DNA of 64,000 bases from positions 3,534,001 through 3,598,000 of the forward strand of contig NZ_CP032382.1 in assembly GCF_003589925.1 (NCBI RefSeq), written 5' to 3'. Within the stretch, counting starts at the first letter, position 1, and the number at the start of each line of letters is the position of its first letter. The position numbers were made by a program, and so were the translations under genes. Of this stretch, positions 4,717 to 60,968 are shown in pieces. Origin of the DNA: Chryseolinea soli. GTDB lineage: Bacteria; Bacteroidota; Bacteroidia; Cytophagales; Cyclobacteriaceae. The notes beneath the pieces were generated by a model, which saw nothing but the letters and a program-made list of their open reading frames with translations, was not told the origin of the DNA and did not search any database.

Positions 4717-5331
4717 TCAATTCCCCTGTTTCACCAAATGTACTTCGTCGGGGATCAGACCGTGCGCTTCTTTGTGTGTGTTCACCATCGCTGCCGAGTC
4801 GGGTGCTTCGGCCAGGCACATCACCACGCCGGCTTTCTCATCTACCCAATAGTTGATCAGGTTCACATCGTATTTGCCTTGAACAGCCAGGTCTTTCACG
4901 TGCGCGTCGGCGACTGCCTTCGCGGTAACATTGCCGGCACCCAGGTGGTGAACATCCAGAAAGAGGGCGCCACGCGACTGGGAGGCTGCAGCCGTACCGC
5001 TCGTAACGAGTTCGATCAGGTCGGGTACAAGGCCATGCGCCTGTTGATGGGTCTTATAAATAGAAGAATCGTCGGGCGATTCGGAGAGGCAATACACTTT
5101 GCCTTTCATTTCATCCACCCAATAGGTTAGAAAACTCACACCAAATTTGCCTTGGGTGGCCAGATCTTTCTGGTGGGCACCGGCCACGTCGGCGGCCGTT
5201 ACTTTACCGGGTTCCAGGTTGTGTACATCGATGTAAAGCTGTCGTTCGACTGGTTTAGGCTGTTGGACGTTCGTGGAACAAGCGGCCAAAACCAGGGCCA
5301 GGGAGAGGAAAACAATACAGGTCTTTTTCAT
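4717..5331 (-). CDS. Double DUF4242 lipoprotein
   Basis: 204 residues from ATG 5331 (MKKTCIVFLSLALVLAACS), a clear lipoprotein signal; a longer reading from 5388 would bury this signal and is rejected. Two DUF4242 repeats follow, the first with YIDVHNL, DLATQGKFGV and THQQAHGLVPD, the second with FLDVHHL, DLAVQGKYDV and THKEAHGLIPD. DUF4242 is a ferredoxin-like fold; a Streptomyces member (SCO4226) is a nickel-binding protein, which is the basis for the frequent name 'nickel-binding protein'. The conserved His pairs (DVHxL and AHGL) would fit a metal site. The gene is divergent from the large LuxR regulator, which is flanked on its other side by a second DUF4242 gene. Confidence 0.88.
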   Translation of the reverse strand: MKKTCIVFLSLALVLAACSTNVQQPKPVERQLYIDVHNLEPGKVTAADVAGAHQKDLATQGKFGVSFLTYWVDEMKGKVYCLSESPDDSSIYKTHQQAHGLVPDLIELVTSGTAAASQSRGALFLDVHHLGAGNVTAKAVADAHVKDLAVQGKYDVNLINYWVDEKAGVVMCLAEAPDSAAMVNTHKEAHGLIPDEVHLVKQGN

Positions 5332-5417
5332 TTTTCGTGATTTAGTTTTAACTAGGACAAAGGAAATCCAAGGGAAATCAAATCTCATCGGAGGTTTTCC
5401 CCGTTTTAGTATTCCGG

Positions 5418-5428
5418 TTCCCTATTTT
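5418..5428. promoter_or_regulatory. Possible regulator box shared by the DUF4242/LuxR locus
   Basis: TTCCCTATTTT lies in the 119-base divergent region between the DUF4242 lipoprotein (minus) and the LuxR regulator (plus), 22 bases before the regulator's ATG. Its reverse complement AAAATAGGGAA recurs exactly at 8074-8084 and with one change at 8051-8061, in front of the second DUF4242 gene. Binding by the LuxR protein is an inference. Confidence 0.35.
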
Positions 5429-5450
5429 TACTAAACCCTCTCTTGCAAAA

Positions 5451-8057
5451 ATGGAATTGGTCGAGCGCGATGCATACCTGGATGTGCTTGCAGAACATTA
5501 TCAGCGCCTCGTCAATGGCGTGGGGCATACCGTGTTTTTGGGAGGCGAGGCTGGCGTGGGCAAAACCTCGCTCGTCAATCGTTTTCTCGACGGCATAGCA
5601 GGCAAGGCCAAGATCTATACCGGTGCCTGTGATTCGCTGTTCACCCCGCGACCGCTCGGTCCTCTCTATGATATTGCCGGGCAATTGGGAAAACCCTTGC
5701 TGGAACTGCTGCGCAATGAAAAAGACCGGGCCCTCATCTTTACTTCTTTTCTGCAAGCGCTGTCGATCCCCGAGGCTCCGGTCGTCCTTGTATTCGAAGA
5801 CATTCACTGGGCCGATGAAGCCACGATCGACTTTATAAAATTCCTGGCCCGTCGCATCGCTCGTATTCCGTGTTTGTTTCTGCTGACGTACCGCGATGAA
5901 GAAGCCAACTTTTATATTCCCCTGAAAGCCTTGTTCGGTGAACTGCCGGCGGGGCTGTTCACCAAGCTCATGGTGCAAAGACTTTCGCGCGAAGCCGTGG
6001 ACCGCATGGCGCTGGAGAAAGGCTACGCCTCGGGCAAGGAAGTATACGCCCTCACCTCGGGGAATCCGTTTTACGTGACGGAGATCCTCGCCAGCTATAG
6101 CCCCGGGATTCCCGAAAAAGTGAAGGATGCGATCCTCACCGTCTTTCATACGCGTGACGAAACCACCCAAGCGCTATGGGAATTTTTGTCCATCCTGCCC
6201 TCGGGCATTGACTACAAAAAGGCGGAACAGATCGATTCTAACTTTCCCGCGGGACTGGAGCATTGCATGCGATCGGGCATCATCGTAAACAAAAATGATT
6301 TCCTGTACTTCAAGCACGAACTCTACCGCATCGCCATTGAAGAGTCGATGACGCCGTATCGACGCAAGAGTTTGCACCACCGGATCCTCCAGATCATGTT
6401 GGACTGCCCCGTAGAGTTCAATAACCTCTCGGAGGTTGTGCACCACGCCAGGCTAGCCGACGACCGCGCGACCGTAGCGCGTCTGGCACCACAAGCCGCA
6501 AAAGAGGCCGCTGGTTTGGGAGCTCACCTCCAGGCGTCCAAGCTCTATCTGACCGCCATCGAATACACCGACCCCAGCGATCCCGCGTTGGTGGAGCTCT
6601 ATGAGCGTCATGCCTACGAATGCTACCTCACCAACCAGATCGCACCGGCCATCGCCTCTCAACAAACTGTGTTGGCGATGTGGCGTGAACGGAAAGTAAA
6701 ATTGAGGGAAGGCGACACCCTTCGCTTTTTGTCGAGACTATGGTGGTTTAGCGGTCATCGCGAACAATCCATCGCACTGGCGCGTGAAGCGATCGAAGTT
6801 CTGGAGAACGGTTTCCCTACGCGCGAGCGCGCGTTAGCCTATAGCAACCTGGCACAACTCAGCATGCTGGCCGACGATCCGGAGAACACGTTGCTCTGGG
6901 GAAACAAAGCCATCGACCTGGCCCAGCGCATGGACGACCAGGAGATCCTTTCACATGCGCTCAACAACGTGGGCGCGGTACAAGTAAAATTCAGTCACGA
7001 TGCAACGGAGGGAACAGCGAAGCTTCAGGAGAGCCTCGCCATTGCGCTAAAGAATGGCTTGCACGAACACGCGGCCCGGGCCTATACCAATCTTTCCTAT
7101 TCTTATGTGTTGATCCGGCAGTATAAGAAAGCGGCTGCAATTTTTGATGAAGGACTGAAGTACTGTGAAGAACGCGACTTGAAATCGTGGTCATATTATA
7201 TGGAGAGCGAAAGGGTGAAGATCCTGTTGGATACAGGCGCCTGGCCCGAAGCCGAAGCACTGGCCCTGTCGTTGTTGAGCAATGCCTTGCAACCGATCAC
7301 CACGAAGATCGGCGCCATCGTTACCCTGGCGCGCCTGAAGACACGGCGCGGCGCGTTTGAGGAAGCGCGACAATTCATCGATGAGGGAAAAAGGATCGCC
7401 CCTCAAACCAGCGAAGCCCAGCGCATCGTTCCCGTGCTGACCGCCGCGATGGAATTTAGCTGGATCACCGGAGAACCGCTTCCCCTCGAAGAATTGAAAG
7501 CAGCGGAAGAGTCCTTGTTCTTTCAAAAGGATACTTCCTGGCATTATACCGCCTTGGCCTACTGGATGCACAAATGCGGACTCTCATTAAACGACAAAAC
7601 CAAGATCGAATTTGTGGGCCCCTTCCGTTTAGAAATTGAAGGCGACTGGAAAGCCGCCGCAGACGAATGGGAGCAAGCCGGGTGCCGCTATGAACACGCA
7701 TTGGCCTTGCTGGCCGGCGACGAGAAACATCAAAAGCAAGGCATCCTCTTGCTCGACGAGATGGGCGCCACTGCCACCAGCGAAATGCTAAAGCTGAAAT
7801 TAAAAGGACTGGGTGTGCGAAACATTCCGAGAGGCCCGCGCGAAAGCACGCGGAACAATCCAGCCCAACTCACCGGCCGCCAGATCGAGATCCTGACCCT
7901 GTTGCAAGGCGGCGCACCCAACAAAGAGATAGCCGACAAGTTGTTCATCTCGCCCAAAACTGTAGACCATCATATCTCGGCCATCCTCTCGAAGCTGGAG
8001 GTGAGCTCGCGCGCGAAGGCCGTGCTGGAGGCGCAAAAGCTGGGCATTTTAAAATAG
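5451..8057 (+). CDS. STAND-type ATPase with LuxR HTH (MalT-like regulator)
   Basis: 868-residue transcriptional regulator. The N-terminus is a P-loop ATPase: Walker A GGEAGVGKTSL at 31-41, Walker B VVLVFEDIHWAD at 111-122. It continues through an Arc/STAND helical region into roughly 400 residues of TPR-like helices (for example AHLQASKLYLTAIEY, RALAYSNLAQLSML, ARAYTNLSYSYVL), and ends in a LuxR-type HTH (TGRQIEILTLLQGG, NKEIADKLFISPKTVDHHIS) at about 805-868. Such proteins bind a small ligand in the TPR part, oligomerise with ATP and activate transcription. The gene lies between two DUF4242 genes, one divergent and one 89 bases downstream, which makes these the likely targets. The signal is unknown. 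Confidence 0.92.
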   Translation: MELVERDAYLDVLAEHYQRLVNGVGHTVFLGGEAGVGKTSLVNRFLDGIAGKAKIYTGACDSLFTPRPLGPLYDIAGQLGKPLLELLRNEKDRALIFTSFLQALSIPEAPVVLVFEDIHWADEATIDFIKFLARRIARIPCLFLLTYRDEEANFYIPLKALFGELPAGLFTKLMVQRLSREAVDRMALEKGYASGKEVYALTSGNPFYVTEILASYSPGIPEKVKDAILTVFHTRDETTQALWEFLSILPSGIDYKKAEQIDSNFPAGLEHCMRSGIIVNKNDFLYFKHELYRIAIEESMTPYRRKSLHHRILQIMLDCPVEFNNLSEVVHHARLADDRATVARLAPQAAKEAAGLGAHLQASKLYLTAIEYTDPSDPALVELYERHAYECYLTNQIAPAIASQQTVLAMWRERKVKLREGDTLRFLSRLWWFSGHREQSIALAREAIEVLENGFPTRERALAYSNLAQLSMLADDPENTLLWGNKAIDLAQRMDDQEILSHALNNVGAVQVKFSHDATEGTAKLQESLAIALKNGLHEHAARAYTNLSYSYVLIRQYKKAAAIFDEGLKYCEERDLKSWSYYMESERVKILLDTGAWPEAEALALSLLSNALQPITTKIGAIVTLARLKTRRGAFEEARQFIDEGKRIAPQTSEAQRIVPVLTAAMEFSWITGEPLPLEELKAAEESLFFQKDTSWHYTALAYWMHKCGLSLNDKTKIEFVGPFRLEIEGDWKAAADEWEQAGCRYEHALALLAGDEKHQKQGILLLDEMGATATSEMLKLKLKGLGVRNIPRGPRESTRNNPAQLTGRQIEILTLLQGGAPNKEIADKLFISPKTVDHHISAILSKLEVSSRAKAVLEAQKLGILK

Positions 8058-50800: not shown

Positions 50801-51556
50801 TTAATGGTTGTTTTTTTTCTTACTGAACAAATGGAGCAGCCGCATCAGGGGATCATAGAACCTGTCGGCTACACGCTCTTTCAAGGGGATGATCGCGTTG
50901 TCCGTGATCGTGATATGCTCCGGGCATACCGTCGTGCAACATTTGGTGATGTTGCAAAAACCGATGCCGCCCGTATCTTTTAGTTGTTCCCTCCGGTCTT
51001 CCACATCGAGGGGATGCATTTCCAGGGCTGCTGTATAGACCATGTGGCGCGGGCCGACAAATTCTTCGTGAAGCTGGTGTTCGCGCAACACATGACAAAC
51101 ATCCTGGCAAAGAAAACATTCGATACACTTTCGAAACTCCTGGATCCGGTCGATATCGGCCTGCGCCATGCGCCACGTGCCGTCCGGTGCATCCGGTGGT
51201 CTCGGCTTGAATTTTTTTATTTTCTTTTTCATGCGATAGTTGACCGACACATCCGTAACCAGGTCCCGGATCACAGGGAACGCTTTCATCGGGTGGATGG
51301 TGATGGGTTTGTCCTGGGGCATATCGCTCATGCGGGTCATGCACATCAGTTTCGGGTGGCCATTGATTTCGGCCGAACACGAACCGCACTTGCCCGCCTT
51401 ACAATTCCAGCGCACTGCCATGTCGTTGGCTTGCTCGGCCTGGATCTGGTGGACGGCATCCAACACGACCATGCCTTCGGAAATTTCAGTTTTATATTCC
51501 TGAAGCTGCCCACCGGTTCCATGCGTACGCCAGATTTGAAAGGTTACAGAGGCCAT
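50801..51556 (-). CDS. sdhB: Succinate dehydrogenase/fumarate reductase iron-sulfur subunit
   Basis: 251 residues from ATG 51556 (MASVTFQIWRTHG); a GTG two codons earlier is possible. N-terminal 2Fe-2S domain with CKAGKCGSCSAEINGHPKLM; C-terminal part with CIECFLCQDVCHVL for the [4Fe-4S] cluster and NITKCCTTVCPEHITIT for the [3Fe-4S] cluster. It transfers electrons from the flavoprotein to the membrane anchor. The gene follows sdhA after 41 bases in the same direction. Confidence 0.95.
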   Translation of the reverse strand: MASVTFQIWRTHGTGGQLQEYKTEISEGMVVLDAVHQIQAEQANDMAVRWNCKAGKCGSCSAEINGHPKLMCMTRMSDMPQDKPITIHPMKAFPVIRDLVTDVSVNYRMKKKIKKFKPRPPDAPDGTWRMAQADIDRIQEFRKCIECFLCQDVCHVLREHQLHEEFVGPRHMVYTAALEMHPLDVEDRREQLKDTGGIGFCNITKCCTTVCPEHITITDNAIIPLKERVADRFYDPLMRLLHLFSKKKNNH

Positions 51557-51597
51557 AGGCACTATCGTTTAGGTCATGATGTTATTTCTGTTGCGGA

Positions 51598-53418
51598 TCA
51601 TTTCATTTCATTGACAATTTGCTGCAGGTCGTCGCGCATTTTTGGTTTTGTCACCTGGGTGACGGTCATGTCACCTTTGTCGTCCTTTTTGATGGCGATG
51701 TTTACTTTCCCAAAGGCATCGCTCTTTTCGGGAAAATCTTCACGGTAGTGGCCGCCACGACTTTCTTTGCGTTGGAGTGCTGCCCTCGCAATGGCTTCGG
51801 CCACCGTGATCATATGGGTTAGCTCCAAAGCCGTATGCCACCCCGGATTGTATCCGCGGTTTCCGCTGCAAGCCACGTGACTGATTTTTTCCTTGAATTG
51901 AACGATATGCTCAATGGCCGCTTCCAATTCTTTCCCTGTCCGAACAATACCCACCAGGTCTTGCATCCGGTCTTGCAACTTGGATTGAATCTGAAATGGA
52001 TTTTCTCCCTCAGCGCTCGATCCCCTTTCAAAAGGAGCGAGTGCCGCCGTGGCAATCTCTTGAACTTCTTGCTCGTTGATTTTTCCGGCCGGCGTTTTCT
52101 TGGCATAGGCAGCCGCATATTCTCCGGCGCGTTTGCCAAATACCAATAGATCGGAAAGGGAATTGCCACCCAACCGGTTGGCGCCGTGCAAACCCGCCGC
52201 GCATTCGCCTGCGGCAAAGAGTCCGGGGGTGCTGGTCATTTGGCTATCTGCGTCGACTTTCACGCCGCCCATAATATAGTGCGTGGTCGGGCCCACCTCC
52301 ATGGCTTCTTTGGTGATGTCGACACCGGCAAGTTCTTTGAACTGGTGATACATGCTGGGCAGTTTCCGCCGGATGTGCTCCGTGGCATTCGGAATTTTTT
52401 CTTTTATCCAGGCGATGTCGAGGTATACGCCGCCGTGCGGAGAGCCGCGTCCTTCTTTTATTTCGCGCATGATGCAACGCGCCACATGGTCGCGGGTGAG
52501 CAGCTCGGGTGGCCGCTTTGCATTTTTGTCGCCTTGCGTATAGCGCCACCCCTCTTCCTCATCGGTCGATGTTTGGGCGCGATACGATTCGGGCACGTCG
52601 TCGAACATAAACCGGCGACCGGCATTGTTTCGCAGCACGCCGCCTTCGCCGCGTACGCCCTCCGTGATCAGCAGACCGCGAACGCTGGGAGGCCACACCA
52701 TCCCGGTAGGATGAAATTGGACAAACTCCATGTCGATAAGTTCGGCGCCGGCATGATAGGCCAACGAGATGCCGCTGCCCGTGCAATCCCAACTGTTGCT
52801 GGAGATCCGGTAAATTCTGCCCATGCCTCCCGTGGCGATGATGACTGCCTTGGCGTGAAACACTTTGAAGAGGCCCTTCTCCCGATCGTATCCAAACGCC
52901 CCGACAATTTTCTCTCCCTCTTTCAGCAGACTCACGATCGTAAACTCCTGGTAGATGTCCACGCCGAGGTGGATGGTGTAGTCTTGCAGGGTGCGGATCA
53001 TTTCAAGACCGGTCCGGTCGCCCACGTGCGCGAGGCGCGGATATTTGTGTCCTCCGAAATTGCGTTGCAGGATCCTGCCGTCATCGGTCCGGTCGAATAC
53101 GGCGCCCCAGGCTTCGAGTTCCCGCACGCGGTCGGGCGATTCCTTGGCGTGGAGTTCGGCCATGCGTTCGTTGTTCAGGTATTGTCCACCGCGGAGTGTA
53201 TCGGTAAAATGGACTTTCCAATTGTCACGGTCGTCCACGTTGCCCAACGCGGCCGCTACGCCGCCCTCGGCCATCACGGTATGTGCTTTTCCGAGCAACG
53301 ACCGGCAAACCACGGCCACCGAAACGCCGGCAGCCGAAGCTTCAATCGCGGCCCTCAACCCGGCGCCGCCGGAACCGATGACCAAGACATCGTGGTGATA
53401 TGTTTCGTAGTTTGTCAT
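51598..53418 (-). CDS. sdhA: Succinate dehydrogenase/fumarate reductase flavoprotein subunit
   Basis: 606 residues from ATG 53418 (MTNYETYHHDVLVIGSGGAG); its ATG shares one base with the sdhC stop (TAATG), so translation is probably coupled. FAD-binding GSGGAGLRAAIEASAAGVSV, the covalent FAD-binding His region LGKAHTVMAEGGVAAALGN, active-site region FVQFHPTGMVWP and EGGVLRNNAGRRFM, and the capping block GGVKVDADSQMTSTPGLFAA. It oxidises succinate to fumarate. Gene order is sdhC-A-B as usual in the single-anchor (B-type) enzymes. Confidence 0.96.
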   Translation of the reverse strand: MTNYETYHHDVLVIGSGGAGLRAAIEASAAGVSVAVVCRSLLGKAHTVMAEGGVAAALGNVDDRDNWKVHFTDTLRGGQYLNNERMAELHAKESPDRVRELEAWGAVFDRTDDGRILQRNFGGHKYPRLAHVGDRTGLEMIRTLQDYTIHLGVDIYQEFTIVSLLKEGEKIVGAFGYDREKGLFKVFHAKAVIIATGGMGRIYRISSNSWDCTGSGISLAYHAGAELIDMEFVQFHPTGMVWPPSVRGLLITEGVRGEGGVLRNNAGRRFMFDDVPESYRAQTSTDEEEGWRYTQGDKNAKRPPELLTRDHVARCIMREIKEGRGSPHGGVYLDIAWIKEKIPNATEHIRRKLPSMYHQFKELAGVDITKEAMEVGPTTHYIMGGVKVDADSQMTSTPGLFAAGECAAGLHGANRLGGNSLSDLLVFGKRAGEYAAAYAKKTPAGKINEQEVQEIATAALAPFERGSSAEGENPFQIQSKLQDRMQDLVGIVRTGKELEAAIEHIVQFKEKISHVACSGNRGYNPGWHTALELTHMITVAEAIARAALQRKESRGGHYREDFPEKSDAFGKVNIAIKKDDKGDMTVTQVTKPKMRDDLQQIVNEMK

Positions 53419-54194
53419 TAGAAGATCCTCCAATCTGTCCAGATGCCCATGGAACAAAGGCGTACATAGATATCGGCAAAGGCAACGCCGAAGAGGCTAC
53501 ACCATGCCCAGTTCATGTGTCGTTTGTTTAGACAACTGGCACAATTGTAAACCTTTCGTTGTACCGGCGACCTCGAAAGCTGATCCTTGAACCCGCCCAC
53601 CAGGTGGCGGAACGAATGACAACCGAACGTATAGCCACCCAGTAGGGTAGCATTCAGCGTGAGCACGATCGTGCCCACTCCAATACCAAAATGTTCCTGG
53701 CCCGTGGCGGGATCAACGAACCACAAAGCTTTCCAGGCATCATAGAAAAGAACGATGACAAAGAGGATGGCCAGGTATAAAAAGTAGCGGTGGACGTTTT
53801 GCAGAATCAGTGGTAAAGAATTTTCACCGCGGTAGGTTTTGCGCGGCTCCGACACGGCACACGCCGGGGGATCGGCCCAAAACGATTTGTAGTAGGCACC
53901 CCGGTAGTAGTAACAGGTAAGCCGCATTCCACCCGGTGCCCAGAGGATGAGCAGGGCCGGTGAAAAGCCCAACACTGCCGGCCACCAGGAAGGCTTGGGA
54001 CCAAACCAGCTATGGGGGGAGTTGCCAAAAATTTCGGGTGAGTAGAAGGGAGAAATATAGGGGCCGATCGCGTAGTGTTCGCCTTGAAAGGCCGCCCAGG
54101 TGGCATAGACGATGAATGAGAAAAGACCAATAAAGACCATCAGCGGGCGTACCCACCAGAGATCTTTTCGCGCGGTTTGGCCAAAACGATTCAC
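53418..54194 (-). CDS. Succinate dehydrogenase membrane anchor (SdhC-like)
   Basis: 258 residues with five hydrophobic segments, the expected number for a single-subunit anchor (PLMVFIGLFSFIVYATWAAF, AVLGFSPALLILWAPGG, RYFLYLAILFVIVLFYDAW, GTIVLTLNATLLGGYTFGCH and the C-terminal helix). His in NVHRYFLYL and GCHSFRHLVGG could bind haem. Unusual for b558-type anchors is a Cys-rich loop, VYNCASCLNKRHMNWAW, near the C-terminus. The gene overlaps the sdhA start by one base. The subgroup is known from Actinobacteria and Bacteroidota; the role of the CxxC motif is not known to me. Confidence 0.85.
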   Translation of the reverse strand: MNRFGQTARKDLWWVRPLMVFIGLFSFIVYATWAAFQGEHYAIGPYISPFYSPEIFGNSPHSWFGPKPSWWPAVLGFSPALLILWAPGGMRLTCYYYRGAYYKSFWADPPACAVSEPRKTYRGENSLPLILQNVHRYFLYLAILFVIVLFYDAWKALWFVDPATGQEHFGIGVGTIVLTLNATLLGGYTFGCHSFRHLVGGFKDQLSRSPVQRKVYNCASCLNKRHMNWAWCSLFGVAFADIYVRLCSMGIWTDWRIF

Positions 54195-54687: not shown

Positions 54688-55443
54688 TTAAGCCCTTTTA
54701 AGTTTGCTTTGCAACTCCACCAAAACGGCGGCAAAGGGATCGTTGCTGTCGACCTCGGTGGTCTGGTCGTAAACGCCATGGGCAAGCATGTTGGCAAACT
54801 CGAGATTCTTTGAAAAATTGGACGACATTTCCTCGATCGCGATGATATTTTTAGCGTTTTCTGAAGTTCTTTTTTTCATATCGATAGCCCACAAGCAGCA
54901 AATGGTCAGGATGATCACGGCCAGAAAACAATGGATGATAAAGGTTTGCAAGTCCATATAATTCAATTGCGTGAAATACACCCGGGCATCGGTGTTTTGG
55001 AGGAAGCTCTTGTATTGCAGGTATCCAAAAAGCGCGTGGTGCAAAACGATGACAATGGCCAGCGGAATCTGGACTTTCCAATTCTGGTAGGTGATGAGGA
55101 GTGTGGCACCGATGAATGCAAAAAAATGCATCTCGAACAAACCATGCGTTTGATAAATGAACTGCCCCATGTAAACACCCACCACAGCGCTGGCAACAAA
55201 CTGATTGACGTTTCCGTCGGGGAACAATTTCTTTGACAGAAAATAAATAGCGAGTAGTATTCCTCCTACCGCGATGGCAATAAACCAGGTATCGTACAGC
55301 GCGGCGATGACTACTCCAAACAGAAAATAGCCGATCAGAAAAATTTCAATGAGTTTATCGGAGCGTTTGTTGATTTCGCGGGTGAGCCGATCCAGGTAGT
55401 TGTCCTGAAGGGCTTGCATGTCGGTGGTAGCGGTACTGGTCAT
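54688..55443 (-). CDS. Six-helix polyhistidine membrane sensor, short form (module A)
   Basis: 251 residues from ATG 55443 (MTSTATTDMQALQDNYLDRL); a longer frame overlaps the preceding gene. Six membrane helices (about 32-50, 53-70, 80-98, 106-118, 125-142, 165-187). Within them are five His shared with the paralogue at 59931: H100 in YQTHGLFEMHFF, H106 in the same motif, H135-H136 in VLHHALFGYLQ and H171. The pattern HG..EMHF, then YQNW, then HH..F.YLQ recalls the membrane domain at the N-terminus of many proteobacterial chemoreceptors. After the last helix come 60 residues of helix and a C-terminal end NDPFAAVLVELQSKLKR, like the tail of a HAMP-type linker; no output domain follows. It starts 11 bases after the thioredoxin-like gene. 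Confidence 0.75.
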   Translation of the reverse strand: MTSTATTDMQALQDNYLDRLTREINKRSDKLIEIFLIGYFLFGVVIAALYDTWFIAIAVGGILLAIYFLSKKLFPDGNVNQFVASAVVGVYMGQFIYQTHGLFEMHFFAFIGATLLITYQNWKVQIPLAIVIVLHHALFGYLQYKSFLQNTDARVYFTQLNYMDLQTFIIHCFLAVIILTICCLWAIDMKKRTSENAKNIIAIEEMSSNFSKNLEFANMLAHGVYDQTTEVDSNDPFAAVLVELQSKLKRA

Positions 55444-55454
55444 ATAGGTATCAT

Positions 55455-56093
55455 TTAGAAAAAACTTGAAATTTCGAACGACTGATCTGGATCGTCGGAA
55501 GGAAGGGTGCAGCCATAGGGCAGTGTCAATTCCGTGGTGACCCACAGTGGCAGCGCCTCACCTTTCAGGAGGTGATCCATCGCTATTTCCGCGAAGCTGG
55601 TTTCTTTGCGTGTGCAATAGCGTGCGACATTGTAGTTGCCTTTAAAATAAAGTTTTGATTCTTTGTCCAGCACGACACTTTGCGGCGTCGAATAAATGCC
55701 ACACCGGTCGGAGATAGCGCCGTCGTGATCCAGCAGGATGGGGAGGTTCAGGTCATACTTTCTTCTGAAAGTTTCCACATCCTCTTCATCGGTTGATTGT
55801 AAGACCACGTAAACGTCTGCCTGATCCCGGTATTTGGATGCGATGCGTTCGAACTCCATCATATTAAAGCGCGAACACGGGCAATCGGGATTAAAAAAAT
55901 GCAGCATGGTGATACGCCCCGGCGCGACGTGATACAGGGAGAGGTCGATGCTCGCCCCGAACTTTACATCTTTAAATTGGGGTGGCACGGGCGTAGGTAA
56001 AATATACTTTGCCTCTTGTTCCCAGAAGATCCATCCCATCGATATCACGGCAAGAAGGGCGGATATAGAAAAAATGGTGATGCGTCCTTTCAT
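55455..56093 (-). CDS. Membrane-anchored thioredoxin-like protein with CPC motif (module A)
   Basis: 212 residues. N-terminal membrane anchor (IFSISALLAVISMGWIFW), then PTPVP and a thioredoxin-like fold facing the periplasm: LHFFNPDCPCSRFN (Cys71 and Cys73, C-P-C instead of CxxC), CGIYSTPQ (Cys131, with the cis-Pro-like TPQ), GNYNVARYCTRKETSF (Cys160) and LPYGCTLP (Cys195). All five Cys align with the paralogue at 59323. The first ATG overlaps the stop of the small upstream gene (ATGA). The CPC spacing is not that of typical oxidoreductases and may favour metal binding or an unusual disulfide. It is probably the extracytoplasmic partner of the sensor protein encoded directly downstream. Confidence 0.8.
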   Translation of the reverse strand: MKGRITIFSISALLAVISMGWIFWEQEAKYILPTPVPPQFKDVKFGASIDLSLYHVAPGRITMLHFFNPDCPCSRFNMMEFERIASKYRDQADVYVVLQSTDEEDVETFRRKYDLNLPILLDHDGAISDRCGIYSTPQSVVLDKESKLYFKGNYNVARYCTRKETSFAEIAMDHLLKGEALPLWVTTELTLPYGCTLPSDDPDQSFEISSFF

Positions 56094-56314
56094 TTTATCC
56101 AGTGGTTGGGCAACTCTTTTTGATATCGCTGCCTGATCGAACTGTTGATACCGATCATGACCTCCGTATTGAACTGGGTAGTGTCATCTATTTTGGAGGG
56201 ATAGATCTTGTTCTTTGACATGACTTTCATGTTTTCCATGGTAATGATTCGCCAACTTAATGGAGGTAGGTTTTCATTTACCCAACTGATGACCTGATTT
56301 GCCGGAGTTTCCAC
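56090..56314 (-). CDS. Small protein at the head of module A
   Basis: 74 residues if started at the GTG at 56314; the first ATG (codon 26) would leave 49 residues. No signal peptide, no recognised domain: INSSIRQRYQKELPNHW and NENLPPLSWRIITMEN are the notable stretches, with W and charged residues. Its stop overlaps the thioredoxin-like gene by ATGA. A weak AGAAGAG precedes the GTG. No counterpart precedes the second module at 59323. Translation is likely from the overlap but not certain. Confidence 0.5.
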   Translation of the reverse strand: METPANQVISWVNENLPPLSWRIITMENMKVMSKNKIYPSKIDDTTQFNTEVMIGINSSIRQRYQKELPNHWIK

Positions 56315-56719
56315 GTCTACTCTTCTTTATTTCTAATGTTGCACAAAAAGCTGAGGGTTAGGAAATATATCCAATTTCATTTAAGAATGATACTTTATGT
56401 AAGATTTGGGATGATTTCGCTAAAAATTTATCCCGCTGTTGTTGCCACTCCAAAATTTTATTGCGGACGCAAGCCGAGTAAAATGATCATCGTGAGACGA
56501 GGGATTGCTATTTAGCAGCACCCTGTTCTGTCTTCAGTGCAAGGGATAATATATTGGAGGAATCGGATAAAAGTCACGAGCTGCGAATAGAAGAAAGTTC
56601 AGTCAGCAGAATCCGATTAAATACTTTTTTTTGTTTTCAACGGAGTACAACAAAAAGAGCCTCGGTTTTTTCGAGGCTCTTTTGTGGCCGATGCGATCAT
56701 GATGGCGTGAAAAAAATAC
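56315..56719. other. Intergenic region upstream of module A
   Basis: 405 AT-rich bases. It must hold the module A promoter in 56315-56450 and contains the terminator at 56653-56683. A 68-codon plus-strand frame at 56554-56760 has no coding character. Confidence 0.6.
56653..56683 (-). terminator. Rho-independent terminator
   Basis: 12-bp stem AAAAGAGCCTCG (56653-56664) / CGAGGCTCTTTT (56672-56683) with a 7-base loop. Read on the minus strand it follows the YD-like lipoprotein gene by 36 bases and ends in TTTTTG; A and T runs on both sides would let it work in either direction. Confidence 0.85.
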
Positions 56720-57805
56720 TTACTGACAGCCCTTGTACTCAAACGTTGTGCCTGCCGTAGAAACCTCTACCCCTGTTTTATCAAGTGTCTTGCTTGTATA
56801 GCTGATGGGGAAATCTTTTGCATTGTAGTCATAAACGTAGGTCGTGGAGCTGTTGGGTTCAAAGCCGGTCATGGCGGCATTTGACGAGAGGTAATTTAGC
56901 CGGGTGATGTTGCGCTTGTAGCTGAAGTTAGCTCTCGTGGAGGGAACCACGGGATATCCCTTTTGACGCCCATAAACATAAGCATTCGGATTTTCCTTTG
57001 CGTCGTATTCGTAAACCGTCGCCGACGATGGCTTTCCATTGAGATAGCGCTCCTCGCGGGCCACTAACCCTTCTGTGGTGTATTCATAGCGATATTCTTC
57101 GGTATACCCTCCATCCGTTTCGATCGACTTGGTGAGTAAGCCCTTTTGGTTATACTCCAGAAATGGGGACGTGGTATTTCCTACGCCATCGGTTTTTGTG
57201 ATCTTCAAAACGACATTGCCGTTGTATTCGATTTTGATGGAAGAGTTGTTATAGGTATTGGAGTATTTGGTCAGCTTCCCGCTGTCGTCATATTCATACT
57301 GTGTCACATAGCTGGTGACTTTGCCGTCGCGGGTATAGGAATAAGATTCTTTGGTCAGGCGATCATTCGCATAAGTGAAGTCTCCGTTGGAGGTTTCAAA
57401 AGTTGATTTGCCGTCTCTGTCTGTGGAATTATATTGTCCTATCCGTCTCAATACAAATCCTTTGTCGTCATATTGAAAACTGGTGGTGGATGTCGAACTG
57501 CTGGTCTTTCCGTCGCTGTAGGTATAATCGTACTTATAGGACTGTTGGGTCTGATTTCCGGCATCATCATACGAAAAGCCGTACACGGATTTGTAGGTAT
57601 AGGTGATGGTTGCGTCATACTTACCCGTACCCGTGTTGGTTTGGGTGACGAGCTGACAGGCTGCATTGGAACCGCTGGGAGATGGCGCATCGTCATCGTT
57701 GTTGCAGGACGTGACCAATAGAATAGCCACGACAAAAAGCGTTGAAAAGCCCCGCGTGAAAGTGCCGGGCATTCTTAGAGTGGGATGGATCAGATTTTTT
57801 TTCAT
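56720..57805 (-). CDS. YD-repeat-like lipoprotein
   Basis: 361 residues from ATG 57805 (MKKNLIHPTLRMPGTFTRGF). Lipoprotein signal VVAILLVTSCNNDDD. The mature protein consists of repeated Tyr/Asp-rich hairpins resembling YD/RHS strands: YGFSYDDAGNQTQQSYKY, TSFQYDDKGFVLRRIGQYN, TQYEYDDSGKLTKYSNTYN, LLTKSIETDGGYTEEYRYEY, TVYEYDAKENPNAYVYG and TYVYDYNAKDFPISYTS. There is no toxin domain at the C-terminus; it ends TAGTTFEYKGCQ. Such short YD-like lipoproteins are frequent in Bacteroidota and probably have a structural or binding role. It lies between the two sensor modules with its own terminator. Confidence 0.85.
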   Translation of the reverse strand: MKKNLIHPTLRMPGTFTRGFSTLFVVAILLVTSCNNDDDAPSPSGSNAACQLVTQTNTGTGKYDATITYTYKSVYGFSYDDAGNQTQQSYKYDYTYSDGKTSSSTSTTSFQYDDKGFVLRRIGQYNSTDRDGKSTFETSNGDFTYANDRLTKESYSYTRDGKVTSYVTQYEYDDSGKLTKYSNTYNNSSIKIEYNGNVVLKITKTDGVGNTTSPFLEYNQKGLLTKSIETDGGYTEEYRYEYTTEGLVAREERYLNGKPSSATVYEYDAKENPNAYVYGRQKGYPVVPSTRANFSYKRNITRLNYLSSNAAMTGFEPNSSTTYVYDYNAKDFPISYTSKTLDKTGVEVSTAGTTFEYKGCQ

Positions 57806-57964
57806 AACCAACTTTTTTTGACGAAGCAAAGGTATTGGTCAGAGCGATGGCTGTCTATCACCTTTTTGGGTCATAGCGTGCTATTCGACCCGCTAATCGG
57901 GGAGCGGATAAAACGTGATTCGCATGATTTATGGTTGCATTGAAGGAAAAGTGATGGGAGGATG

Positions 57965-58441
57965 TTAAATCCAGCGTCTCACCGTTTTGCAGTATTCCTG
58001 ATAGCTTGTTCCGAAGTCTTTTTTCAGACGCGGTTCTTCCCGGAACACAATAAACAGGTTGAAAGCCGTGAAGACTCCGATGCCATACACGAATAAGTTA
58101 GCCGATTGGGTAAAAATTGCCTCACCGACAAGCATCAGCATCACACCTACATACATCGGATTGCGGGAGAACTTATAAAGCCCCGAAATGACAAGGCGTT
58201 GGGTTGGATCGGCGGGAGAGAGCGTGCCGCGGCCATGGACGGCGAAATTTGCGATGCAATGAAGAGTTACGCCCATTCCCACCAGGCATACCAGCATGCC
58301 CCCGTAGTGATACATCTGGAGTGAACCGGCAAAGGCGTTCTCGAAATTTTTCCGGGCCAGCAGAAACGGAATCAGCCCCGCCACAACGCCGGGTTGCAGG
58401 ATGGTAAAGAATAGATTTCGCAGGAATAGCGACATACGCAT
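57965..58441 (-). CDS. Isoprenylcysteine carboxyl methyltransferase-like membrane protein
   Basis: 158 residues, with a second ATG two codons later. About four hydrophobic segments (FLRNLFFTILQPGVVAGLIP, MLVCLVGMGVTLHCIANFAV, YVGVMLMLVGEAIFTQSANL and FTAFNLFIVFREEP). The SAM-binding signature is clear: GLYKFSRNPMYVGVML and EEPRLKKDFGTSYQEYCKTV. It belongs to the ICMT/PEMT-like family of integral membrane methyltransferases, whose bacterial members methylate lipids or unknown acceptors. Neighbours give no clear hint, although it lies between the two redox sensor modules. Confidence 0.87.
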   Translation of the reverse strand: MRMSLFLRNLFFTILQPGVVAGLIPFLLARKNFENAFAGSLQMYHYGGMLVCLVGMGVTLHCIANFAVHGRGTLSPADPTQRLVISGLYKFSRNPMYVGVMLMLVGEAIFTQSANLFVYGIGVFTAFNLFIVFREEPRLKKDFGTSYQEYCKTVRRWI

Positions 58442-58528
58442 GGTTAAAATATTGAAAAAAAATCGCAGATGCTATTCCGGAGCTACGCGTGCAACGGCTG
58501 AGGGGACGCCATAGCGCCCGGCCGACCC

Positions 58529-58807
58529 CTACTTCCTCCTGCCGCTGATGCAAATGGTTACTTGATCGCCTGGTGCTTTGTTGATCGTTTTTTGCAGCTC
58601 GGATTTGATGGGCAATTTATGGGTGCCGTCGCCGAGTGCCATGAATGCGCTTTGGAACGGGTGCCCGTCGGCGGTGCCATTTATTTTGACCAGGCCTTTC
58701 GTTCCAAAAAAAGTTACGGATTCCGGCCACTTCACATAGGTCCATCCACCCTTCGAGGGACTTTTTTGAAGCACCGCCTTGAACGTTGCTAATGCTTTTT
58801 TTGTCAT
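58529..58807 (-). CDS. DUF1905 domain protein
   Basis: 92 residues from ATG 58807 ([14 protein letters not shown]). DUF1905 pattern: [69 protein letters not shown]. Family members form a small beta-barrel and are often fused to or encoded with YdeI/bacteriocin-protection-like proteins. Here it stands alone. Function unknown. Confidence 0.85.
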
Positions 58808-59322
58808 GGTTTTTTTGTTTGATTTTCTAAGGTAAAGTTGGCAAGAAAATCTGCCGCGCGGCGGTGTAGGAGGCGACAAACTACCGGGCCGATCGCGCCA
58901 AGGTCAGCCTATCGATATTCGATCGATTTGGGCCCTTTTTGGGTCTTTGAAAACCGCCCAAACGCAGGCCTCGTCTGAACCACGTAGGCCCACCGTTACC
59001 AAATTGAAATTTATCCGTCCCATTTTGACATTTCTTAAGGAATTGACCGGAACAATAACTTCACTTCTCTTAGAAAAATACCCCAAAAAACGCTGTTATG
59101 CAGGCCCTGGTTACCTAGGGTTCTCGTTAGGGTACTAAGGCACTATATTTGTGTATTTGACACTTATCCGATCTCAAATGGATGCTGTTTCAGGCGTCAT
59201 TTGATTGTTGTCTGCCACCACCTTACCGGACGAGACCATTTGAAGCTGGCACTGGGCCAGCAAGAAGGTCGCCCGTCCGGGTGCTGGCGGATCGCATTGA
59301 TTTTTTGAAAAAGAAGACCCCG
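58808..59322. other. Intergenic region with the module B promoter
   Basis: 515 bases without a convincing gene. Features: TATATTTG at 59144-59151, and several short frames lacking coding character. No terminator-like hairpin with a T-run is apparent. Confidence 0.55.
59144..59151 (+). promoter_or_regulatory. Candidate promoter -7 element of module B
   Basis: TATATTTG fits the Bacteroidota -7 consensus TAnnTTTG exactly, 171 bases before the ATG of the thioredoxin-like gene. No clear TTTG at the -33 position is present, so the assignment is weak. Confidence 0.4.
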
Positions 59323-59934
59323 ATGAAGAAAGTTGCGTTGATCATTATCCTGTCCGGCATTCTTGTGGCGATTGCCGGTGTCTTCTGGTATCAGGAGATG
59401 CGGTATCTGATGCCTACGCCGGTGCCGGTCGGCTACAAGGTGATCCACCCGGAAGAACTTATCCAGTACGATACCGTGCTCCTTCCGCAGCAACATAAAA
59501 AACCGAAGCTGCTGCACTTTTTCAGCCCTGAATGCCCCTGTTCCCGATTCAATCTGAAACATTTCCAGGCACTCCGCCGGGAATATGGTCAGGCGATCGA
59601 TTTCTACGTGGTGGTGGACAGTGAAGATAAGGTCGAGCCAGCAAAGGGTCTGATCAGCAGCGAGGTGACGATCGTAGTGGACGGCAACAGAAAATTGGCA
59701 AAGGCCTGTGGCGTTTATTCCACCCCCCAGGCCGCCATCATACAAACGTCGAATCGACTTTACTTTAGAGGAAATTATAACCGGTCAAGATACTGCACCA
59801 ACAAGGAAAGCAACTTTGTGCAAATGGCGCTTGACTCGTTGGTGGCCGACAAGAGACCGCCTCTTTTCAATGAACTCGCCATACAATCCTATGGCTGCAG
59901 CATCCCCACCACCGAAGCCCCGGAAATCCAATGA
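59323..59934 (+). CDS. Membrane-anchored thioredoxin-like protein with CPC motif (module B)
   Basis: 203 residues from ATG 59323 (MKKVALIIILSGILVAIAGV), a membrane anchor; the frame runs on upstream but lacks similarity. Paralogue of the protein at 55455: PTPVP, LHFFSPECPCSRFN (Cys71, Cys73), CGVYSTPQ (Cys129), GNYNRSRYCTNKESNF (Cys158) and SYGCSIP (Cys192). The spacing of all five Cys is conserved within three residues. The stop overlaps the start of the sensor gene (ATGA, 59931-59934), so synthesis is coupled. It faces the periplasm. The unusual CPC could be a redox or copper/haem-thiol handling site. Confidence 0.8.
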   Translation: MKKVALIIILSGILVAIAGVFWYQEMRYLMPTPVPVGYKVIHPEELIQYDTVLLPQQHKKPKLLHFFSPECPCSRFNLKHFQALRREYGQAIDFYVVVDSEDKVEPAKGLISSEVTIVVDGNRKLAKACGVYSTPQAAIIQTSNRLYFRGNYNRSRYCTNKESNFVQMALDSLVADKRPPLFNELAIQSYGCSIPTTEAPEIQ

Positions 59935-60968
59935 GCACATCAGCATTCTATACCGGGAAAATGTCAGGTAGCCAGGCACTCAGCGAAAGCGAGCTGAAGG
60001 AGATCAAGAAGGATATCTTTTTATTTGCCGACAAAGTGAATGAGGGGTTGCTCTTCGCCATGTTCATTTTCGGGATCTTCATTGCTTTTTTTTACGACAC
60101 GTGGCTGGTGGCTTTTGCCGTAGGGAGTCTGTGCCTGGCGGCCTATTATATTTCAAAAAAGATGTTGCCGGAGTCTGACATCTATCAATATGTATTGAGT
60201 GGTGTCTCGGCAATTTTTGCAGCACAATTTATCTACCAGATGCACGGCATGGCCGAAATGCACTTTTGGGTGTTCATCTGTTCTACCATTCTCATCATCT
60301 ATCAAAACTGGAAACTGCAAATCCCGTTGATCGCGATCGTCGTGGTTCACCATGCCTCCTTTGCCTATCTTCAATTCGTGGGATATAAAGAGATCTATTT
60401 CACCCAGCTGGACTATATGGATCTCACCACGTTCATATTCCACGGTGTGCTGGCGGCCTGCGTCTGCGCCGTAGCGGCCTACTGGAGTCATATCATCTAT
60501 AAACGCACCGTCCAGGACGCAGAGAATCTTAAACTACAGTTGCTGTTAAAGACCGAACTGCAGGAAAAAAACGAAGAGCTTACGGCCTCCGAGGAAGAGC
60601 TTCGCGCGTCACAGGAAGAACTCATGGCGTCGCAGGAAGAGTTGACGCAGATCAACGAGAATCTCAACGACCTGGTCAAGGAAAGAACGTTAACCATCAT
60701 CGATCAGAACAAGAAGTTTGTTCACCACGCCTTTATCAATGCACACAAAGTGAGAAGTCCGCTGGCGCGCATCCAGGGACTGGTCAACCTGCTGAGCTAC
60801 GAAACGCATCGGTTAAGCGACGACGCGCTGGAGATCCATCGCCTGTTGAAAGCATCGTCTATCGAACTGGATGATATTCTCCATGAAGTGAAGGTCAATC
60901 TCGATGCCGCGGAATACAAAGGGCTGCCGGAAGATCCTTTTAGTGATGATCTGGTAAAACAGGCTTAG
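59931..60968 (+). CDS. Six-helix polyhistidine membrane sensor with coiled coil and HisKA domain (module B)
   Basis: 345 residues. Six membrane helices (about 40-55, 57-75, 86-103, 110-124, 130-148, 165-187) with five His conserved in module A: H105 and H111 in YQMHGMAEMHFW, H140-H141 in VHHASFAYLQ, and H171. A coiled coil follows (about 195-255) with an eight-residue repeat near EELTASEEELRASQEELMAS. It leads into a kinase phosphoacceptor helix FINAHKVRSPLARIQGLVNL, phospho-His 272, and a second helix SSIELDDILHEVKVNLDAA. The protein ends there: no ATPase domain, and the next gene is on the opposite strand. A separate ATPase partner or phosphotransfer must exist if it signals. Confidence 0.8.
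   Translation: MSTSAFYTGKMSGSQALSESELKEIKKDIFLFADKVNEGLLFAMFIFGIFIAFFYDTWLVAFAVGSLCLAAYYISKKMLPESDIYQYVLSGVSAIFAAQFIYQMHGMAEMHFWVFICSTILIIYQNWKLQIPLIAIVVVHHASFAYLQFVGYKEIYFTQLDYMDLTTFIFHGVLAACVCAVAAYWSHIIYKRTVQDAENLKLQLLLKTELQEKNEELTASEEELRASQEELMASQEELTQINENLNDLVKERTLTIIDQNKKFVHHAFINAHKVRSPLARIQGLVNLLSYETHRLSDDALEIHRLLKASSIELDDILHEVKVNLDAAEYKGLPEDPFSDDLVKQA

Follow-up and report, generated by a model that had tools for sequence, protein, structure and literature searches.

Why should a membrane-anchored thioredoxin-like protein be encoded directly beside a membrane protein rich in conserved His? The question is raised by a stretch of 64,000 nucleotides from Chryseolinea soli (contig NZ_CP032382.1, positions 3,534,001 to 3,598,000; a genome of 8.24 Mb in a single contig), here called the window, in which such a gene pair occurs twice (Table 1). 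Each pair encodes a thioredoxin-like protein with a match to DUF6436, a domain of unknown function, and a six-helix membrane protein. As a first-pass annotation made from the letters had described, the two pairs stand in opposite orientation, with an 11-bp gap between the thioredoxin-like gene and the downstream membrane gene of pair 1 and an ATGA overlap between those of pair 2; the pairs are divergent and 3.2 kb apart. The Cys and His positions listed in that annotation proved correct to the residue in all four proteins.

A conserved two-gene module in Bacteroidota

In a sample of 118 genomes from the window's order, the thioredoxin-like protein was found in 42 and the membrane domain in 47 at E <= 0.001, and both were found in 39 (Fisher, 1e-19). 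When weak matches were dropped (over 1e-15 for the thioredoxin and over 1e-17 for the membrane domain, cut-offs set after the gap in E-values had been seen), the two sets became the identical 39 of 118 genomes. Thirty-six membrane matches in this sample adjoin a thioredoxin gene, which always lies on the same strand and always comes first. A second sample of 395 Bacteroidota genomes, which shares at least three genomes with the order sample by matching coordinates, gave 11 genomes with the thioredoxin; the same 11 had a strong membrane match (E <= 2e-61), and the genes were adjacent in 11 of 11, with the best few candidates per genome scored at E <= 1e-15 and the counts not exhaustive. The thioredoxin match of the second-sample genome G340 carries an internal stop. 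The opposite pattern, in which the membrane proteins of related genomes would occur mostly without the thioredoxin-like gene, was looked for and is not so. Because the Cys and His recur in relatives and the linkage recurs across the phylum, the pairing lies far beyond chance, and the co-occurrence suggested by the first-pass annotation is borne out: the thioredoxin-like and six-helix genes form a conserved two-gene module.

The same arrangement was seen among named loci, of which 370 were confirmed and the best 80 kept. The thioredoxin open reading frame (ORF) lies just upstream of the membrane gene in 67 of these 80; in L067 it lies across a run of N, and 12 loci are without it. A gene fusion in L067, with one ORF joining both proteins, was considered and rejected, as the run of N lies between them. 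All 12 genomes without an adjoining thioredoxin have a strong match elsewhere (split over two frames in G513), and in nine of them the best thioredoxin adjoins a second six-helix protein. The clearest recurrent neighbour after the thioredoxin gene is a single-domain response regulator, located just downstream in 13 loci. In Flavobacterium (L168-L175), a kinase version of the membrane protein occurs without an adjoining thioredoxin, while elsewhere a short six-helix protein stands beside the thioredoxin gene, as if one thioredoxin served both six-helix proteins.

The window thioredoxin-like proteins both pass the DUF6436 profile (PF20029), with 41.1 bits in pair 1 and 52.6 bits in pair 2 against a cut-off of 27.3; AhpC-TSA and thioredoxin matches were also obtained (AhpC-TSA, 41.7 bits in pair 1). 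These genes account for the two DUF6436 matches over the cut-off in their own genome; a third match falls under it. The AlphaFold2 model of the pair 2 protein (predicted local distance difference test score, pLDDT, 94.2) has an anchor helix at residues 2-29, followed by thioredoxin-like strands and helices, and its best Foldseek matches are 2ywo, 2cvb, and 3u5r. Among solved structures, the closest to it are redox proteins of the thioredoxin-like and ResA/StoA types. Five Cys are found at positions 71, 73, 131, 160, and 195 in copy 1, corresponding to 71, 73, 129, 158, and 192 in copy 2; in copy 2 numbering, they are kept in 69, 67, 58, 67, and 67 of the 69 aligned thioredoxin rows. The CxxC active site of the thioredoxin/TlpA/ResA type is absent: both copies have CPC (CxC), with both Cys in 67 of 69 rows. 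The single N-terminal anchor and the thioredoxin fold are Sco-like traits. However, PF02630 (SCO1/SenC) gave no row at E <= 1 for either window protein, and the Sco CxxxC and distal His are absent, with CPC at 71-73 and Cys158 and Cys192 instead. Judged from the sequence, the protein is thus not a Sco member, since two defining features of that family are lacking. In the literature searched, which left out subscription papers, the sole mention of DUF6436 found was a domain list.

The membrane domain is equally conserved in its His. Among 81 membrane rows, made up of 79 of the 80 named loci (L067 was excluded because of the run of N) and the two window proteins, His105, 111, 140, 141, and 171 (copy 2 numbering) are present in 80, 81, 80, 81, and 81, and Gln103, Gly106, and Glu109 are invariant. 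In the AlphaFold2 model of copy 1 (pLDDT 91.5), helices span residues 3-50, 53-73, 79-98, 106-119, 122-148, 165-221, and 236-250, boundaries compatible with all five His lying in the outer half of the bilayer. For the membrane helices of the two window proteins, neither Pfam nor NCBIfam gave a match above the cut-off, and no named Pfam domain was found for those of the relatives scanned at the limits used. A search of PDB sequences with the membrane profile gave no match at E <= 1, a Foldseek search of the membrane model against the PDB and against viral proteins had no match below E 0.1, and none of the phage records matched.

The outputs joined to this domain vary: HATPase_c was found in 41 of the 81 rows, HisKA in 39, GAF_2 in 29, a receiver in 15, and SpoIIE in 4. 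So many output types on one membrane domain indicate that the module plugs one input into many outputs. In the window, the outputs are reduced. Copy 1 has DUF2975 as its sole Pfam row (E 0.8, below the cut-off), no output domain was found in it, and its C-terminus is a short helix. The HisKA match of copy 2 reaches 16.9 bits, below the cut-off of 26.9, and no HATPase row was obtained. Residues 18-205 of copy 2 match 1080 proteins at E <= 0.001, and the His of its H-box (NAHKVRSP) is kept in 106 of the best 120 of these 1080 homologues; the remaining 14 are off-pattern. The copy 2 sensor may serve in phosphotransfer or as a dominant partner of a complete kinase. By domain content and motifs, neither window membrane protein is a complete kinase or a member of RegB.

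The His set also goes with the partner. The His sites could be aligned in 74 of the 79 membrane matches from the order sample; four partial rows were dropped and the G117 match was unaligned. The 36 proteins adjacent to a thioredoxin gene comprise 34 with five His and two with four His. Where the thioredoxin lies elsewhere in the genome (32 proteins), 15 have five His, one has four (an interrupted gene), and 16 have three or fewer. None of the six proteins from genomes that lack a strong thioredoxin has more than three. At least four His are thus found in 36/36 adjacent versus 16/38 non-adjacent proteins (Fisher, p 7e-9).

Sco proteins and other partners beside related receptors

Five second-sample genomes with weaker membrane matches have no DUF6436 and keep His111, 140, and 141; His171 is kept in the three whose alignment covers that position. 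A rule that the His set occurs only with DUF6436 had been considered and is contradicted by these five genomes. The gene directly upstream of the membrane gene in all five is of the Sco type, and PF02630 was passed in 5/5. A search with one receptor of this Sco branch gave 33 genomes at E <= 1e-6, 13 of them strong (E <= 1.7e-46), and added eight Sco-branch genomes that were not among the matches of the second-sample membrane search. A Sco-type gene lies directly upstream on the same strand in 13/13 strong genomes of this sister branch, as found with a Sco profile built from six sequences, five of which come from those 13 genomes. Twelve of the 13 Sco proteins keep CxxxCP with HTDH about 90 residues on, which we take to be the copper ligands; the remaining one (L270) is atypical but still passes PF02630. 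The profile is passed by each of the seven Sco proteins that were scanned, including that of Marinobacter. In the 13 membrane domains of the branch, His105 is present in none and His113 in 12. A Marinobacter plasmid receptor shows the same EMHFHIF pattern, with a Sco gene upstream. In a more distant receptor group, a CPC or CAC thioredoxin-like protein lies upstream in three of the nine loci read (L271 2083-2820, L278 2191-2847, and L279 2201-2866, with at most a sub-threshold Pfam match), and the other six have none.

The six-helix domain occurs joined to histidine kinases, GAF proteins, and chemoreceptors. The first-pass annotation had likened its His pattern to that of the membrane domain of certain proteobacterial chemoreceptors, and it was found there, in Pseudoalteromonas, Marinobacter, Vibrio, and Rhizobium. 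Proteobacteria were reached almost only through plasmids, by tblastn. Chemoreceptors on Pseudoalteromonas plasmids carry the domain with 29-34% identity, and in all eight such records a DUF6436 match overlaps or adjoins the receptor; in the three records opened, the receptor gene shares its last 17 bases with DUF6436, an order reversed relative to Bacteroidota. The linkage thus persists where phylum, gene order, and output differ. On a Pseudomonas aeruginosa plasmid, DUF6436 immediately precedes a six-helix gene that encodes 315 residues and has no chemoreceptor signalling domain, and on an Alteromonas plasmid it is divergent from an interrupted six-helix receptor. The four aligned gammaproteobacterial proteins (L124, L125, L126, and L128) have the fifth His at position 100, not 105.

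Other neighbours were observed further afield. Five alphaproteobacterial receptors (L219-L222 and L224) each follow an anchored protein, 98-122 residues long, that has a Cys near its end; four of these five small proteins were scanned without a Pfam match, and no such protein was seen in the sixth record, L223. In Vibrio (L161 5266-5691 and L163 ~5287-5700), the receptor gene overlaps that of an anchored protein about 140 residues long, in which Cys are conserved; the L161 protein has no Pfam match. In Granulicella (Acidobacteriota, L164 4731-6659), a GGDEF-EAL protein has a related membrane domain with His. A Halobaculum chemoreceptor with a relative of the membrane domain is located between a norB-like gene and nirK (L218 1298-6868). 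This denitrification context was found in one of the six haloarchaeal records opened, and the other five differ; it was not used as support.

Candidate functions of the module

The literature search, which covered titles and the starts of abstracts and left out subscription papers, found no description of this pairing. Among known systems, PrrC/SenC, a Sco protein, is encoded with the six-helix kinase PrrB/RegB. The likeness lies in a six-helix sensor kinase whose gene accompanies that of an anchored periplasmic protein with a thioredoxin fold. The differences lie in both partners: the thioredoxin-like partner is DUF6436 in the window and Sco in the sister branch; GGxxNPF, which we take to be the quinone motif of PrrB/RegB, is absent by eye from both window membrane proteins; and the five-His set is presumably not part of RegB. 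The MHYT domain is a membrane sensor whose His have been proposed to bind copper and to sense oxygen, CO, or NO. It resembles the module as a His-bearing membrane sensor, but the MHYT Pfam profile gave no match in the window proteins or in the 81 relatives scanned. The six-helix receptor domains of class III adenylyl cyclases (Rv1625c and AC8) are also among the closest known systems considered. An analogue for the chaperone step comes from the cbb3 oxidase: the accessible part of PMC7558416 describes Sco-type chaperones with a one-helix anchor that help assemble the deeply membrane-buried CuB, and insertion of its copper from the periplasmic side. An anchored periplasmic thioredoxin-fold chaperone thus serves a site in membrane helices there as well, whereas the target in the module is a sensor rather than an oxidase, and DUF6436 has no CxxxC and distal His. 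By analogy, the module would work like a Sco-and-target or PrrC-PrrB arrangement. ImcA-IsmP of Pseudomonas aeruginosa differs, as IsmP has CHASE4, PAS, GGDEF, and EAL domains and no thioredoxin fold in the accessible part of PMC10904736. As a guess only, PA2867, whose ligand domain is unassigned in the accessible part of PMC10653921, is a candidate relative.

Since receptors of one family stand beside DUF6436 or, in its place, Sco, the simplest common explanation is that the His site is loaded with copper. We give an even chance to the reading that each pair consists of a sensor and its own metallochaperone, which would load copper into the His site in the membrane. For the metal and its transfer, the sensed ligand, the topology, and the direction of signalling, we infer the following course. 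The thioredoxin-fold protein would sit in the periplasm, held by one helix, where its CxC and two further near-invariant Cys would carry a soft metal or reduce it, Cu(I) being the most likely. The metal would then be handed over to four to five His that form a site in the outer half of the six-helix domain. Once loaded, this site may sense oxygen, nitric oxide, redox state, or copper supply at the periplasmic face. The change would pass through the last helix into the coiled coil, which would drive a kinase, a GAF protein, a chemoreceptor or, in the window proteins, a reduced output. A dedicated chaperone suggests a fixed cofactor rather than a free-copper switch. The first-pass annotation had named haem, copper, and a redox signal as possible mechanisms; the presence of Sco in the same gene position appears to narrow these towards copper, leaving haem and a thiol signal less probable.

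Copper loading would give DUF6436 a proposed role and would unite many unnamed kinases and chemoreceptors under one biochemical logic. It would be unusual for a sensor to be equipped with a metallochaperone of its own. Such receptors could fail to respond in standard ligand screens, which would lack both cofactor and partner. With DUF6436 exchanged for Sco in a sister branch, the copper hypothesis lends itself to a direct test. More tentatively, and with some doubt, the proteins may represent an unrecognised class of membrane-buried copper sensors, in which a dedicated but exchangeable periplasmic chaperone, be it DUF6436, Sco, or another CxC thioredoxin-like protein, fills the His cluster of a six-helix domain that is coupled to histidine kinases, chemoreceptors, GAF proteins, and a GGDEF-EAL protein. 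Members of this class would occur in Bacteroidota and Pseudomonadota and relatives of it in Acidobacteriota and haloarchaea, and its copper would sense oxygen or nitric oxide as the CuB of an oxidase binds it.

Several observations weigh against copper loading. In the order sample, seven strong thioredoxin genes are unpaired, and no six-helix gene was seen within ~2.4 kb of the five that were read. PF20029 is over its cut-off in 36/395 genomes, of which only 10 are module genomes, the non-module genomes scoring only marginally, below 35 bits. Fifteen five-His proteins lack an adjoining thioredoxin (though one lies elsewhere in the genome), and clade confounds the link between His set and partner, because the His-poor proteins are the more distant ones. 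The neighbour in alphaproteobacteria and Vibrio is a small Cys protein without a recognised thioredoxin domain, and the haloarchaeal and Granulicella members have no annotated thioredoxin-like neighbour. The 25 neighbour families present in at least three of the 80 loci include, by eye, no copper, efflux/resistance, or oxidase genes. As DUF6436 lacks CxxxC and the distal His, copper binding is ascribed to it by analogy. Sco proteins have proposed thiol-redox roles too.

In a different account, the periplasmic protein is itself a metal-free redox sensor: the disulfide state of its CxC, together with the two extra Cys, would follow oxidant or disulfide stress and be reported by docking on the six-helix protein, where His and Glu would shape the docking surface or a proton-sensitive site. 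The thioredoxin fold, a Pro135 that follows Thr134 as in the cis-Pro loop, four near-invariant Cys, and nearest solved relatives of the thioredoxin-like and ResA/StoA types are in keeping with this account, as is the fact that the partners vary by lineage and are yet all anchored proteins with Cys. It leaves unexplained the five fixed His in the membrane helices, the alternative Sco partner with copper ligands intact in 12/13, and the association of the His set with the partner, and we regard it as unlikely, if still the strongest of the rivals. The His could instead be explained by haem, with at least two of them ligating a b-type haem in the membrane and the thioredoxin-like protein reducing thiols or aiding haem insertion, as ResA/CcmG-type proteins do for cytochrome c. 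His in membrane helices near the outer side are classic haem b ligands, and the partner resembles ResA in sequence and fold. However, neither membrane protein contains CxxCH by eye, the alternative partner is Sco rather than ResA or a haem lyase, and the adjacent His140-His141 on one helix are unlike the bis-His pairs of haem b; a haem sensor is therefore the least probable of the readings weighed here.

Copper might also be the signal itself. In that case, the chaperone would be the copper-binding subunit of a sensor, loading or unloading of the His site would be read directly, and no gas or redox ligand would be involved. The facts that favour metallochaperone loading favour this version equally, and chemoreceptor outputs could steer cells by copper. 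We consider it improbable, only a little less so than haem: by eye, no copper efflux or resistance genes are among the recurrent neighbours, and the position of the Halobaculum relative between norB and nirK points to nitrogen oxides or oxygen, although the five other haloarchaeal records differ.

The window pairs and their surroundings

The features of the two pairs are collected in Table 1.

Table 1. Coordinates of the two gene pairs and their conserved sites, as positions in the window
Feature	Position	Strand	Remarks
Pair 1 thioredoxin-like protein, DUF6436	55455-56093	minus	212 aa, N-terminal membrane anchor; PF20029 41.1 bits
Pair 1 CPC motif, Cys71-Pro-Cys73	55875-55883	minus	Read from sequence
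Pair 1 six-helix membrane protein	54688-55443	minus	251 aa; no catalytic output domain found
Copy 1 stretch with five conserved His (100, 106, 135, 136, 171)	54931-55146	minus	
Pair 2 thioredoxin-like protein, DUF6436	59323-59934	plus	203 aa; PF20029 52.6 bits; AlphaFold2
Pair 2 CPC motif, Cys71-Pro-Cys73	59533-59541	plus	Read from sequence
Pair 2 six-helix sensor	59931-60968	plus	345 aa: membrane domain ~18-200, coiled coil, HisKA-like helix pair
Copy 2 stretch with five conserved His (105, 111, 140, 141, 171)	60243-60443	plus	

The first-pass annotation called the module duplicated, which holds in the sense of paralogy but not of a recent event. Copies 1 and 2 share 33% identity in the thioredoxins and 38% in the membrane proteins (46-47% in the membrane domain alone). 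In both trees, copy 1 groups beside a Rhodocytophaga pair, with support of 0.48 for the membrane protein and 0.91 for the thioredoxin. A recent tandem duplication is rejected by these identity values and trees, and the pairs appear to be old paralogues. Among the named relatives in the genome scan, that of Chryseolinea serpens comes closest to pair 2, with 91% identity over the domain; no copy 1 was seen there within 6 kb of pair 2.

Two further gene neighbourhoods were observed. In L213 (435-3012), a DUF6436-type gene that stands alone follows, two genes on, that of a ZnuA-type metal-binding protein. Just downstream of pair 1 in the window, on the same strand, positions 50801-54194 hold a three-gene set that is not among the recurrent neighbours of related loci and that by eye resembles fumarate reductase/succinate dehydrogenase, with iron-sulfur, flavoprotein, and cytochrome b subunits.

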